Assembly: GCA_002868905.1 (NCBI GenBank)
Contig: PKUA01000061.1
Coordinates: 1 to 41,612 of the forward strand
DNA: 41,612 bases
Direction: 5' to 3'
Source: Desulfuromonas sp.
GTDB lineage: Bacteria > Desulfobacterota > Desulfuromonadia > Desulfuromonadales > Geothermobacteraceae
Under the pieces are notes generated by a model. That model ran no database searches. It saw nothing but the letters and a program-made list of their open reading frames with translations, and was not told where the DNA came from. Positions 15,821 through 22,421 of the stretch are shown here, in pieces; the first letter of the stretch is position 1, and every line of letters starts with the position of its first letter. Position numbers and translations under genes: made by a program.

Positions 15821-16990
15821 ATGCAAAAAACAAACTATCCATTCTCCGCCATCCTCGGCCAGGATGACATGAAGACAGCCCTGTTGCTGTGCGCCGTTGA
15901 TCCTGCCATCGGCGGTGTACTGATCCGGGGGGACAAGGGGACCGGGAAAACCACGGCAGTCAGGGGCCTCACCAGCCTGTTACCCGACCTGAGCGTGGTC
16001 GAAGGTTGCCCGTATAACTGTCCTCCGGACCAGCCGGATGTCATGCACGATGGCTGTCGGCAAAAATTTGAGCGTGGCGAGGAGTTGAAAACCACTCGCC
16101 GTCCAACGCCGCTGGTCGATTTGCCCCTGGCCGCTTCCGAGGACCGTGTTGTCGGCACCCTGAACCTCGAATCGGCTCTGCGCGATGGCGAGCGGCGCTT
16201 CGAACCGGGCCTTCTCGCCACCGCGAACCGGGGTATTCTTTACGTCGATGAAGTCAACCTGCTCGGGGACCATCTCATCGACCTGTTGCTCGATGTCGCC
16301 GCTTCGGGGGTCAATGTGGTGGAGAGGGAATCGTTGCAGGTGCGTCACCCCGCCCGCTTTCTGCTGATCGGCACCATGAACCCTGAGGAAGGGGAGCTGC
16401 GACCTCAATTCCTCGATCGCTTCGGCCTGTGTGTTTCGGTCGAAGGGGTCAACGATCTTCAGCAGCGGAGCGAAATCATCCGTCGCCACCTCAGTTTCGA
16501 AACATCCCCGGTCCAATTCGGCCATGCCTGGGCGGAGAGCCAGGTCATGCTGAGTCGCCAGCTGCTCGAGTCGACGGATCGACTCCCCCACGTTCAGGTC
16601 CCTGAAGACATCCTGGAACGGGCCGCCCTGATCTCCCTGCGTGCCAAGACCGCCGGTCATCGTGCCGACCTGACCATGATCCGGGCCGCACGGGCACTCT
16701 GTGCCCTGCTCGACCGACCGGTCGTAGGTTCGGAAGAACTGCTGGAGGCCGCCCGCTTCGTCCTGCCGCATCGCATGGGGGATGCGACGTTCGTGGCGCC
16801 GAGCGAATTGGGCCCTCGTCTGCAGGAGCTGCTGAAAGAGCAGGTCGTGACCTCCTCTTCCGAAAAATCCGAGCCAGGTCTGGAAGATTTCGGTTTCCTC
16901 GCCGACAACATGCAGGTCCCGGGTGCAACCGCCGCCGGAGGCAACATGTTGTTCGATTTTCTTAAAAAAAAAGTCGGGCGCAGGTTATAG
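15821..16990 (+). CDS. AAA+ chelatase subunit (ChlI/BchI-like), zero-frame product
   Basis: A 389-aa AAA+ ATPase of the Mg-chelatase/cobaltochelatase I-subunit type. Walker A is GDKGTGKT (37-44), Walker B ILYVDE (139-144), sensor 1 LLIGTMNPEEGELRP and the arginine-containing LDRFGL follow. A cysteine-bearing insert GCPYNCPPD at about 62-70 is typical of this branch. The I subunit drives insertion of Mg2+ or Co2+ into a tetrapyrrole with a VWA partner. In the cobaltochelatase-like family I recall (about 630-670 aa), AAA+ and VWA parts are one chain; here the zero frame stops at 16988-16990, just after a run of nine A, while the VWA part continues in the -1 frame. The zero-frame protein would be a complete I-like subunit; a frameshifted one would be about 667 aa. 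A pyrimidine-rich sequence precedes the ATG, so initiation looks weak. Confidence 0.88.
   Translation: MQKTNYPFSAILGQDDMKTALLLCAVDPAIGGVLIRGDKGTGKTTAVRGLTSLLPDLSVVEGCPYNCPPDQPDVMHDGCRQKFERGEELKTTRRPTPLVDLPLAASEDRVVGTLNLESALRDGERRFEPGLLATANRGILYVDEVNLLGDHLIDLLLDVAASGVNVVERESLQVRHPARFLLIGTMNPEEGELRPQFLDRFGLCVSVEGVNDLQQRSEIIRRHLSFETSPVQFGHAWAESQVMLSRQLLESTDRLPHVQVPEDILERAALISLRAKTAGHRADLTMIRAARALCALLDRPVVGSEELLEAARFVLPHRMGDATFVAPSELGPRLQELLKEQVVTSSSEKSEPGLEDFGFLADNMQVPGATAAGGNMLFDFLKKKVGRRL
16964..16972 (+). promoter_or_regulatory. A9 slippery run, probable frameshift or slippage site
   Basis: Nine consecutive A occupy three lysine codons (16964-16972) of the ChlI-like frame, 15 bases before its stop codon. 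A -1 shift here enters the frame that leads without a stop into the VWA protein; upstream of the run that frame is closed by TAA at 16963. GGAGG at 16937-16941 lies 22 bases upstream. A 7-bp stem (GGCAGAG 16992-16998 with CTCTGCC 17015-17021) lies 19 bases downstream. Both are plausible stimulators but not at textbook distance. A9 also permits transcriptional slippage. Confidence 0.6.
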
Positions 16991-17004
16991 AGGCAGAGTC
17001 GAAC

Positions 17005-17823
17005 TTGCATCCGCCTCTGCCGGATCAACCGCTGAACAGGAATCGACAGGTCGGGGGACGACGGCAGAAACCGAAGACCGAACAGGGACGCGGCCGCTGG
17101 ATCAGGTCTGTTCCGCTCGGCCGCAGCGAACGTCCCACCGATCTTGATCTGCGAAGTTCACTGCTGGCTCATGCCGCTCACCGGGACCGCTCCGCCCCTC
17201 CGGGGCCCCTGAAAGCTGCAAGCCTCCGAAAAAAAATCCGGGCGCTGCCGCAGAGACAGTCGGTGCTGCTGCTGGTGGACGCATCCGACTCGATGGGGGA
17301 TGAGTCCACGGTTCGGATGCGGGTCGCCAAAGGGGTCGCGCTCGCCCTGCTCGATCGTGCCTACGTCAACCGTTTTCGGGTCGGCATGATCGTCTTCCGC
17401 GAACGCGATGCGGATCGCGTCCTCGCGCCCACCAACAGCGTCGAACTCGCTCGCACCAAGCTGCGCAGGCTCGGTATCGGCGGAGCGACGCCGTTGGCAG
17501 CCGGAATCGAGCTCGCCATCAAAACTCTCAAACAGGAGCGGATCAAGCACCCCGGCAGTGATCCGCTCCTGGTCATCCTCTCGGATGGCGAAGCGAATGT
17601 ACCGTTAACCCCGGGAGAGGATGTCCTTGCCGAGGTGATCGCTTTCGGGCGACTATTGCGACAGGAAGGAATCTCTTCGCTGATGATCAATACCGGCTCG
17701 TCCAGCCAGGGATCAACCCTGTTGCGCCGCTTGACGAAGGCGGCTGGGGGTGACTACAGTCAGATGAACGGCCTGACGCCGGGCGCGATCCTCGACCTCG
17801 TCAATGACCGGCCTGACACCTGA
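17005..17823 (+). CDS. VWA-domain chelatase part (ChlD-like), -1 frame relative to the AAA+ part
   Basis: A 272-aa open frame from a TTG start; without the TTG the frame is open from 16966. It holds a basic, Pro/Arg-rich linker (GGRRQKPKTEQGRGRWIRS), then a von Willebrand A domain with an intact MIDAS site: DASDS at 92-96, Thr162 in GGATPLAAG and Asp194 in LSDGEAN. Basic linker plus VWA is what follows the AAA+ domain in single-chain cobaltochelatase-like proteins, so this is best read as the C-terminal half of a 667-aa product made by frameshifting at A9. Separate initiation at TTG, with AGAGG about 11 bases upstream and coupling to the preceding stop, is possible. The domain binds the I-type ring and the porphyrin-binding subunit. 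No CobN/ChlH is in the window. Confidence 0.85.
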   Translation: MHPPLPDQPLNRNRQVGGRRQKPKTEQGRGRWIRSVPLGRSERPTDLDLRSSLLAHAAHRDRSAPPGPLKAASLRKKIRALPQRQSVLLLVDASDSMGDESTVRMRVAKGVALALLDRAYVNRFRVGMIVFRERDADRVLAPTNSVELARTKLRRLGIGGATPLAAGIELAIKTLKQERIKHPGSDPLLVILSDGEANVPLTPGEDVLAEVIAFGRLLRQEGISSLMINTGSSSQGSTLLRRLTKAAGGDYSQMNGLTPGAILDLVNDRPDT

Positions 17824-17841: not shown

Positions 17842-18150
17842 ATGCCACGTTGTAAAACCAGCCGCCAGGTTCATGTACCGGCGACGCCGGACAATTGGGA
17901 AGAGTTATGCCACGGCTGTGGCGAGTGCTGCTTTGAAAAGGTCATCAGTCCCGGCGGTCGCCTCGTCACCACCAAGATCTCCTGCCGCTATCTCGACGTC
18001 GTCAGCAGACAATGCAACGTCTATCCGAAGCGTTTCGACACCGAACCGACCTGCCTGAAATTGACACCCGAACTGGTGTCCGGCGCGACCTGGTTGCCCG
18101 AGTCCTGCGGCTACGTCAAATGGCTGGAGGAACAGGCAAATCACTTATGA
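17842..18150 (+). CDS. YkgJ/UPF0260-type cysteine cluster protein
   Basis: A 102-aa cytoplasmic protein with a family-typical cysteine set: CHGCGECC at residues 23-30, then Cys48 in KISCRYLD, Cys58 in RQCNVYPKR and later single cysteines including ESCGYVKW. These resemble the CxGCGxCC proteins (YcgN/YkgJ, Zn/Fe-chelating family), which bind a metal or Fe-S cluster; their function is unsettled. AAGGAG seven bases before the ATG gives a strong start. It lies 18 bp after the VWA gene and is likely in the same operon, which ends at the terminator near 18300. Confidence 0.85.
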   Translation: MPRCKTSRQVHVPATPDNWEELCHGCGECCFEKVISPGGRLVTTKISCRYLDVVSRQCNVYPKRFDTEPTCLKLTPELVSGATWLPESCGYVKWLEEQANHL

Positions 18151-20624: not shown

Positions 20625-22421
20625 ATGGTAAGATTCTTTATTTCCCTGTTTCTACTCATCACCTTGCTCGGCTGCAGTGGCGGTGGCAACAACGACGACA
20701 ACGGTAACGACGCAAACAATAACGATCAGGGCAACGACACCGTCCAGGTCGACGTCGACAACGATGGCATGTCCCTGGCCCAGGGGGACTGCAACGACGA
20801 GAACGACAGCATTTACCCCGGTGCGACCGAGATCTGCAGCGACGGCATCGACCAGGACTGCGACGGCGAAGACCTGGAATGCCCACCCGACCCGGACGAC
20901 GTCGACGATGACCAAGACGGCGTCACCGAAAACCAGGGAGACTGCGATGATACCGACGCATCCATCCACCCCGGTGCGACGGAGATCTGTGGCGACACGA
21001 TCGACCAGGACTGCAACGGTACCGACCTGGAATGTCCACTCGACCCGAACGGCATTGATGATGATCTAGATGGTATGACCGAAAATCAGGGGGACTGCGA
21101 CGACACCGACGCATCCATCCACCCCGGCGCGGCGGAGATCTGCGGCGACACGATTGACCAGGACTGCGACCAGTTCGACACCGAATGTGAGTCCGACACC
21201 AACGAGATCGACGACGACGGAGACGGCATCACCGAAAACCAGGGGGACTGCGACGACACCGACATCTCCATCTACCCTGGCGCGGACGAGGTCTGCGAAG
21301 ACGAAATCGACCAGGATTGCGACGGCGAAGACCAGGACTGCGACGACCCGGTCATCCCGGTTGACGGTGACGGTGACGGCATCGCCAGGGTTCACGGCGA
21401 CTGCAACGACCAGGACAACTCGATCTTCCCGGGTGCACCGGAGACCTGCGGGGACGGCATCGACCAGGACTGCAACGGCTCCGACCAGGCCTGCCCCGAC
21501 GACGTCGATAACGACGGGGACGGCATCACCGAAAACCAGGGTGACTGCGACGACACCGACTCCACCATCTATCCCGGCGCTGAAGAGATCTGCGAGGACA
21601 CGATTGACCAGGACTGCGACCTGGCCGATATCGAGTGCCCCGTTGATCCGAACGACGTCGACGATGACCTGGACGGCATCACCGAAAACCAGGGTGACTG
21701 CGACGACACCGACTCCACCATCTATCCGGGTGCGGACGAAATCTGCGAAGACAGCATCGACCAGGACTGCGACGGGAATGACGAGGACTGCCCCTCGACC
21801 GCTGACCTCTTCGTTGATCAGAACCTGGCCGACTGCGTCATCGCAGCCCAGGCGACGACCCCCAACGGCCTGCTGAGCGAAATCACCAGTCTCAGCTGCG
21901 TCAACAAAGGGATTTCAAACTTGAGCGGCCTCGAGAACCTGGACCTGATCTCCCTCGACCTGAGCATTAACAACATCAGCAGCCTGGCCAGCATGGTGAG
22001 CCAGACCAACCTGCAATCACTGAACCTCGCAGAGAACAACATTTCCAGTCCGCACGTCTCTTACCTGCAGGGGCTGACCCAGATGGTCGAACTCGATCTC
22101 TCCTACAACCCCATGACCAACGGTGGCGGACAGTACCTGTTGCCGATGTCGAACCTGACCACCCTGGCGGTCAACGGCATCGTCATGGCCGATTTTCTCA
22201 GCGTCGGCATGGACCCAGGCGACATCTCGCAGATCCAGAATCTTTCCACCCTGGAGATCGAAAACTGCAGCGTCATCACCTTGGACATCCTGGAAGATGT
22301 CAGTTCATTGACGACGCTATACGCCGCCGACAACTGCATCTCCGACTGGACACCAGTCGATCACGTCCCGAATGTCTACGGGCAAGGTTCCCAGGGAAAT
22401 CTCTTGGATTGTCTTTTCTAA
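20625..22421 (+). CDS. lipoprotein with seven MopE-like metal-binding repeats and an LRR domain
   Basis: A 598-aa lipoprotein: signal peptide with lipobox LLGC (Cys17), then an Asn/Asp-rich spacer. Seven repeats (about residues 43-390) have the pattern DxDxDGxxxxxGDCxDxxxxIxPGAxExCxDxIDQDC, matching the putative metal-binding MopE-type repeat. The Asp-rich loops look like calcium-binding loops, and the paired Cys probably form disulfides. The C-terminal third (about 395-598) is leucine-rich-repeat-like, with units such as LISLDLSINNISSL, LQSLNLAENNISS and MVELDLSYNPM, a fold used for protein binding. It is likely an outer-membrane or surface protein. GGAGG is five to six bases before the ATG. 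It resembles the CAP lipoprotein at 23.5-26 kb in its repeats. Confidence 0.88.
   Translation: MVRFFISLFLLITLLGCSGGGNNDDNGNDANNNDQGNDTVQVDVDNDGMSLAQGDCNDENDSIYPGATEICSDGIDQDCDGEDLECPPDPDDVDDDQDGVTENQGDCDDTDASIHPGATEICGDTIDQDCNGTDLECPLDPNGIDDDLDGMTENQGDCDDTDASIHPGAAEICGDTIDQDCDQFDTECESDTNEIDDDGDGITENQGDCDDTDISIYPGADEVCEDEIDQDCDGEDQDCDDPVIPVDGDGDGIARVHGDCNDQDNSIFPGAPETCGDGIDQDCNGSDQACPDDVDNDGDGITENQGDCDDTDSTIYPGAEEICEDTIDQDCDLADIECPVDPNDVDDDLDGITENQGDCDDTDSTIYPGADEICEDSIDQDCDGNDEDCPSTADLFVDQNLADCVIAAQATTPNGLLSEITSLSCVNKGISNLSGLENLDLISLDLSINNISSLASMVSQTNLQSLNLAENNISSPHVSYLQGLTQMVELDLSYNPMTNGGGQYLLPMSNLTTLAVNGIVMADFLSVGMDPGDISQIQNLSTLEIENCSVITLDILEDVSSLTTLYAADNCISDWTPVDHVPNVYGQGSQGNLLDCLF
20751..21794 (+). 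repeat. seven tandem MopE-like repeats (LRR lipoprotein)
   Basis: DNA encoding seven units of roughly 45-55 residues. Each contains GDCxDxxxxIxPGAxExC and IDQDC. Some neighbouring units are nearly identical in DNA (for example the segments beginning near 21519 and 21681), pointing to recent duplication or gene conversion. Confidence 0.85.

Follow-up and report, generated by a model that had tools for sequence, protein, structure and literature searches.

The window analysed here, a stretch of 41,612 nucleotides of Desulfuromonas sp. DNA, contains what is, with a probability that we put at about 0.82, a single recoded gene of the chlD type, which would give a short and a long product by slippage on a run of nine A residues (A9), the two probably forming a mixed AAA+/VWA ring that would serve a client outside the usual three-part chelatase. 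Under standard decoding, translation would end at 16990 and release a ChlI-like AAA+ ATPase of 389 residues; in a fraction of events a −1 slip on the A9—or the gain of one A in the mRNA—would give a protein of 667 residues, in which the same intact AAA+ module continues into a linker and a VWA domain whose MIDAS motif is complete. The production of both proteins is predicted from the sequence. Their assembly into a mixed AAA+ ring is suggested by precedent, since ChlI/ChlD and CobS/CobT form rings of this kind.

The window was reread, its open reading frames listed and both frames translated, and the coordinates, the frames, the A9 and the residue counts (384 + 283 = 667) of a preliminary description of this DNA proved right to the base (Table 1). 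At the junction the zero frame reads CTT AAA AAA AAA GTC GGG CGC AGG TTA TAG, with the stop codon (16988–16990) five sense codons past the run. The −1 frame is closed by a TAA at 16963–16965 and is open from 16966 until the stop ending at 17823; the residues after the slip begin SRAQV, and the 667-residue product has no internal stop.

Table 1. Features of the putative recoded gene and its surroundings, in coordinates of the window.
Feature	Position	Strand	Basis
Zero-frame ORF, ChlI-like AAA+ (short product, 389 aa)	15821..16990	+	ORF list, translation, profile matches
Putative recoded gene of the fs-chlD type, predicted to give 667 aa (384 + 283) by a −1 slip	15821..17823	+	translation, TIGR02442
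Tail PGATAAGGNMLFDFL just ahead of the run; pattern PGxxA(A/S)...(L/I/V)F	16919..16963	+	alignment
GGAGG, 22 bases ahead of the run	16937..16941	+	sequence
A9 putative slip site, codon-aligned AAA AAA AAA, including the heptamer A AAA AAA	16964..16972	+	sequence, relatives' junctions
−1 frame: VWA domain (MIDAS motif DxSxS..T..D) behind a basic linker	16966..17823	+	translation, profile matches
7-bp stem, GGCAGAG (16992–16998) with CTCTGCC (17015–17021), starting 19 bases past the run	16992..17021	+	sequence

The short product carries a Walker A motif (GDKGTGKT), a Walker B motif (ILYVDE) and a sensor/arginine region, and ends in the tail PGATAAGGNMLFDFLKKK. Its AAA+ half matches positions 1–323 of TIGR02442, together with TIGR02030 (ChlI), Pfam Mg_chelatase and the AAA lid, and the closest solved chains are BchI/ChlI (1g8p, 8osf, 6l8d); the VWA half matches positions 401–640 of TIGR02442 plus VWA domains. 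The joined product spans positions 1–640 of the 641 of this model ('putative cobaltochelatase') at 628.3 bits, which is below the model's curated cut-off of 779.45. As in fs-chlD genes, the AAA+ and VWA halves lie in different frames, I before D, and joined they have the length of a chlD product. The residues of Walker A, Walker B, the sensor/arginine region and MIDAS are retained in the 19 rows compared, with the exception that the contigs of genomes G042 and G061 end within the VWA half.

The gene is present in 19 of the 118 genomes searched (E-value up to 1e-30), the window's own included, and is split in 17 of them. In all 17 split genes a run of nine A or more lies in register with the codons, and the VWA half follows at −1. 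The junction was read directly in 16 of these genomes, always as AAA AAA AAA, either as A9 or, following CTA, as A10; the gene of the 17th, G092, spans two contigs, the second of which starts upstream of the junction and has the same arrangement. Whether close relatives keep the run and the shift, a check proposed in the preliminary description, is thus answered in the affirmative, and a slippery A/T-rich site at the frame change, as in fs-chlD genes, is conserved in all of the split-gene genomes of the order (Desulfuromonadales). Identity to the window's protein among the 18 other rows of its clade is 43–51%. Lysine codons in the run are AAA in 48 of 48 cases in the 16 genomes (G092 is not counted), against 118 AAA and 122 AAG elsewhere in the same genes, a bias with a naive log10 P of −18.0 that is not corrected for relatedness; the codon preceding the run varies (CTT, CTC, CTG, CTA or TTT). 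The constancy of AAA throughout the run next to a variable preceding codon suggests that selection acts on the nucleotides of the run as well as on the protein. Throughout the clade, the −1 frame can be aligned from the first residues past the slip. The A9 is the sole run of at least nine identical bases in the window. A second A-run (A8) lies at 17229–17236, in the −1 frame ahead of the VWA domain (CGA AAA AAA ATC); among the other rows compared, two runs of at least seven in the stretch scanned are present in G042 only.

Conservation across the split genes and precedent in the literature both favour the claim that one gene gives an I-like and a D-like product through a −1 slip on the A-run. 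Programmed chlD frameshifting with a short I-like and a long D-like product, which the preliminary description had taken as established, is in print (PMC9227772; PMC3711429); fs-chlD genes are already established, and the window's gene adds a member. According to Antonov et al. 2013 (PMC3711429), three cassettes of Mg-chelatase frameshift genes gave 63, 40 and 10% shift in E. coli with 11, 9 and 7 A, the 40% belonging to the 9-A cassette of the fs-chlD type.

As for the route, ribosomal and transcriptional slippage are rated about equally likely. The run holds A AAA AAA, which is sufficient for a −1 ribosomal slip, and nine A falls in the range of known RNA polymerase slippage; to a reading in which the polymerase, not the ribosome, slips and a mixture of 9-A and 10-A mRNAs encodes the two proteins we give somewhat less than an even chance. 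It is favoured by the retention of at least nine A in every split gene of the order, although seven would suffice for the heptamer A AAA AAR, and by the failure of any downstream structure to recur (below). The nine A may, however, equal the heptamer plus a kept lysine codon, and a split Herpetosiphon homologue has A7 only. The 7-A cassette, too, still shifts at 10%, and the two routes are not separated for this gene (PMC3711429, in the part available).

Two nearby elements had been put forward as possible stimulators, and neither is conserved. The GGAGG is rejected because its 22-base distance exceeds the spacing of the upstream stimulator in dnaX, roughly 10–14 bases, and because none of the other rows compared has it at the matching place (G061, G103 and the Spirochaetales row have GGGAG or GGGGAG); it is probably a mere consequence of Gly-Gly coding. 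The stem is rejected as well, being present in the window and not recurring in relatives. Folding of the 60 bases past the run is weaker than the average over the gene in 13 of the 16 order genomes, and z falls below −2 in one of 16 at 60 bases (G079) and in one of 16 at 40 bases (G039); the window itself has −1.6 at 60 bases and, outside the order, Dfust1 has −3.2. By fold stability, a measure that does not extend to pseudoknots, no recurring downstream RNA structure was found in the 16 order genomes. A downstream stimulatory structure is 'usually' present in fs-chlD genes and is not a necessary feature of them (PMC9227772).

Split genes with A-runs also occur outside the order. Among the best 80 of 585 loci, taken from a wider homologue scan, they are found in a Spirochaetales MAG (L032, A9), in two Desulfofustis MAGs (L035 and L051, A10 in another register) and at four Chloroflexi-type loci (L066 with A7; L071, L080 and L086 with A9). 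A survey of the phylum gave matches in at least 140 of 394 genomes, with at most three candidates scored per genome. L022 is the G061 contig and L043 the G039 contig, as equal lengths (3444 and 120041 bases) and identical junctions show, and each was counted once; L041, L083 and L087, first scored as −1, +1 and interrupted, each have a frame that runs unbroken for 560 aa or more and were counted as unsplit, and a separate ChlI lies near all three. About ten loci with no VWA half near the best match were judged solely by the unbroken-frame search.

In a quick tree the window groups with 15 relatives from its order, the Spirochaetales row and both Desulfofustis rows in a clade made up entirely of split genes (19 rows, SH-aLRT 100), and the Chloroflexi-type split genes fall outside it, among unsplit genes. 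The tree has 102 rows, G092 being absent and 17 of the 96 unsplit rows, all Streptomyces by title, omitted; apart from G061 and G042, split rows were reduced to their N-terminal 330 and C-terminal 260 residues. Its midpoint root is no more than a drawing aid, and inner placements are uncertain owing to several long branches. The tail pattern of Table 1 matches all 19 rows of the split clade, none of the 96 unsplit homologues and none of the four Chloroflexi-type split genes, although it was written post hoc from the alignment and a looser form matches one unsplit homologue (L054).

Uninterrupted relatives without an A-run had been named as evidence that would speak against recoding. Such genes do exist: 96 homologues are unsplit and 90 of these, including that of G040 in the window's own order, have no A9 in the linker; none of those in the quick tree, however, lies inside the window's clade. 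The remaining six have A-runs of at least nine in the linker stretch, so the run by itself does not split a gene. Unsplit L040, L044, L038, L154, L152 and L157 have A8–A10 in the linker (codons about 342–360) with a −1 stop 1–8 codons later, an arrangement that would mirror the polarity as in dnaX, with the long product in frame and the short one made by slippage. Among the 11 of 96 unsplit genes with at least A8 in the tested part of the linker, the −1 stop is not significantly nearer than in other places (p 0.18). In Chloroflexi, split genes and unsplit genes with such A-runs intermix on the quick tree.

The assignment of the two products as cobaltochelatase subunits is doubtful, because no CobN/ChlH large subunit was found. 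PF02514 (CobN/ChlH), the criterion by which a three-subunit chelatase (CobNST or ChlIDH) was recognised, has no match in the window's own genome, which is rated 99.98% complete, and a search of this genome with TIGR02442 gave four weak matches of 27–31 bits but no second ChlI/ChlD. The CobN survey covered 25 genomes, namely the 17 with the split gene, G040 and G110 from the same order, and six members of the order that lack the gene. One of the 17 split-gene genomes, G076, has a match, to the first 87 CobN positions at the end of a 4755-base contig, and the other 16 have none. This start of a CobN (L120, L173; end of contig C45) is either real or contamination, and G076 may well have a CobN. 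The search was positive in five of 14 control genomes and in G040 and G110, both of which have a whole CobN and a separate ChlI. These two carry another type of the gene, with 45–48% identity: G040 has an unbroken ChlD frame of 691 aa, a separate ChlI and CobN side by side, and on the contig of G110, the end of which cuts ChlD, only the VWA end is present. The six genomes without the gene also lack CobN; as a rule, therefore, the order has no CobN, and only G040 and G110 provide the contrast. PF02514 is likewise absent from the three other genomes of the clade (L032, L035 and L051), for which completeness is not given. There is a small residual chance that a CobN was overlooked by the HMM or left unassembled.

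The window's genome encodes CbiX, which is an alternative candidate for cobalt insertion. A survey of CbiK and CbiX gave a mixed picture, and since seven of the 17 split-gene genomes (G057, G076, G083, G088, G092, G096 and G103) have neither, there is no clean tie to B12. A classical cobaltochelatase for B12 synthesis, in which the two products would be the small and medium subunits and the large one has escaped recognition, consequently seems unlikely to us, given the pattern of PF02514 absence (the window's genome, 16 of 17 split-gene genomes of the order and all three others of the clade), the CbiX and the score of the joined product below the TIGR02442 cut-off. In its favour, the closest family model is nevertheless that of a putative cobaltochelatase, whole CobN is present in two of the four genomes with Chloroflexi-type split genes and its start in G076, and in the published stage 8 an fs-chlD gene supplies both subunits of the Co-chelatase (PMC9227772).

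Judging by the missing CobN/ChlH, cobalt insertion within the usual three-part chelatase is most likely not the task of the ring, which would act on another client in the manner of a MoxR/VWA-like remodelling machine. The pair of products is best regarded as a ChlI/ChlD-like AAA+/VWA machine that lacks the usual large subunit. We propose more tentatively, at not far below even odds, that the clade as a whole—16 genomes of the order, the two Desulfofustis and the Spirochaetales—has an AAA+/VWA machine recoded at an A-run and independent of CobN/ChlH, with the PGxxAAG...LF tail and a client of its own, which would make it a relative of the Mg- and Co-chelatase motors and not a usual chelatase.

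Gene neighbours, considered as a clue to function where a cluster occurs in at least three genomes, offered nothing common across families. The widest cluster besides the gene itself is that of a membrane protein, presumably a chloride channel, in six genomes that all belong to family f12; the few three-genome matches across families sit at differing distances. Several contigs are short, and neighbours are therefore partly unseen. Within the window, a small YcgN-like cysteine-cluster protein (17842–18150) starts 18 bases past the VWA stop and is possibly co-transcribed; it is in no neighbour cluster common to at least three genomes. Further on, a 598-aa protein is encoded at positions 20625–22421; it has leucine-rich repeats and, in seven stretches, the MopE copper-binding motif.

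An explanation that dispenses with recoding, in which there are two genes and the VWA protein is begun by re-initiation at TTG 17005, is very improbable. That codon is at +11 past the run and 14 bases beyond the stop, with GAGG upstream, and a start codon within 20 codons occurs also in G041 (GTG, +12) and G083 (ATG, +18). In the remaining 13 of the 16 order genomes, however, there is no ATG, GTG or TTG in the first 20 codons past the run, and the alignment of the residues straight after it in the −1 frame and the synonymous retention of its AAA codons also argue against re-initiation. A conserved start codon dedicated to the VWA protein, which the preliminary description had listed as potential counter-evidence, is thus lacking among these 16 genomes. 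A pseudogene or a homopolymer assembly error, conceivable in that homopolymers are prone to error and one window alone cannot exclude it, can be set aside, as the same state recurs in 17 of 17 split-gene genomes of the order and catalytic motifs are retained on both sides of the junction; a lone sequencing error as the cause of the split is excluded by the relatives, at the level of sequence comparison.

The gene is a probable example of deeply conserved homopolymer recoding in a lineage that goes unmentioned in the main texts of PMC9227772 and PMC3711429; we found no paper that joins magnesium chelatase, frameshifting and Desulfuromonas, and claim no first description. Genomes of 'stage 1', without CobN/ChlH, include those of Spirochaeta thermophila and Brevefilum fermentans, and the function of their ChlI/ChlD is given as unknown (PMC9227772). 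This published open question, the role of ChlI/ChlD pairs that lack a large subunit, becomes testable in anaerobes of the order, which holds recoded I/D genes without CobN beside separate ChlI and ChlD genes with CobN. Gene callers may report such genes as two, or as one broken gene. Genes of the fs-chlD type are reportedly also dealt with by Antonov (2020, Mol Biol Evol).

Like the published fs-chlD genes (PMC9227772; PMC3711429), the window's gene is one chlD-type gene with a −1 shift at an A-run between AAA+ and VWA, and has a short I-like and a long D-like product, here predicted. Unlike them, it belongs to another lineage, the Desulfuromonadales, has a clade-specific PGxxAAG...LF tail and resides in a genome with a CbiX chelatase; nor does it share a recurring downstream structure, which is usual for the fs-chlD genes of PMC9227772. 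The genome resembles 'stage 1' of Kuznetsov, Milenkin and Antonov 2022 (PMC9227772). Domain order and catalytic motifs are those of Mg-chelatase ChlI/ChlD and of the single-chain TIGR02442 proteins, which, unlike the window's gene, are read in one unbroken frame or from separate genes. A further parallel is dnaX-type recoding, where an A-run likewise yields two products with a common N-terminal AAA+ module. There the long product comes from the standard frame and slippage leads to the short one, whereas here the polarity is reversed: the standard frame encodes the short product, and the slip would give the long one.
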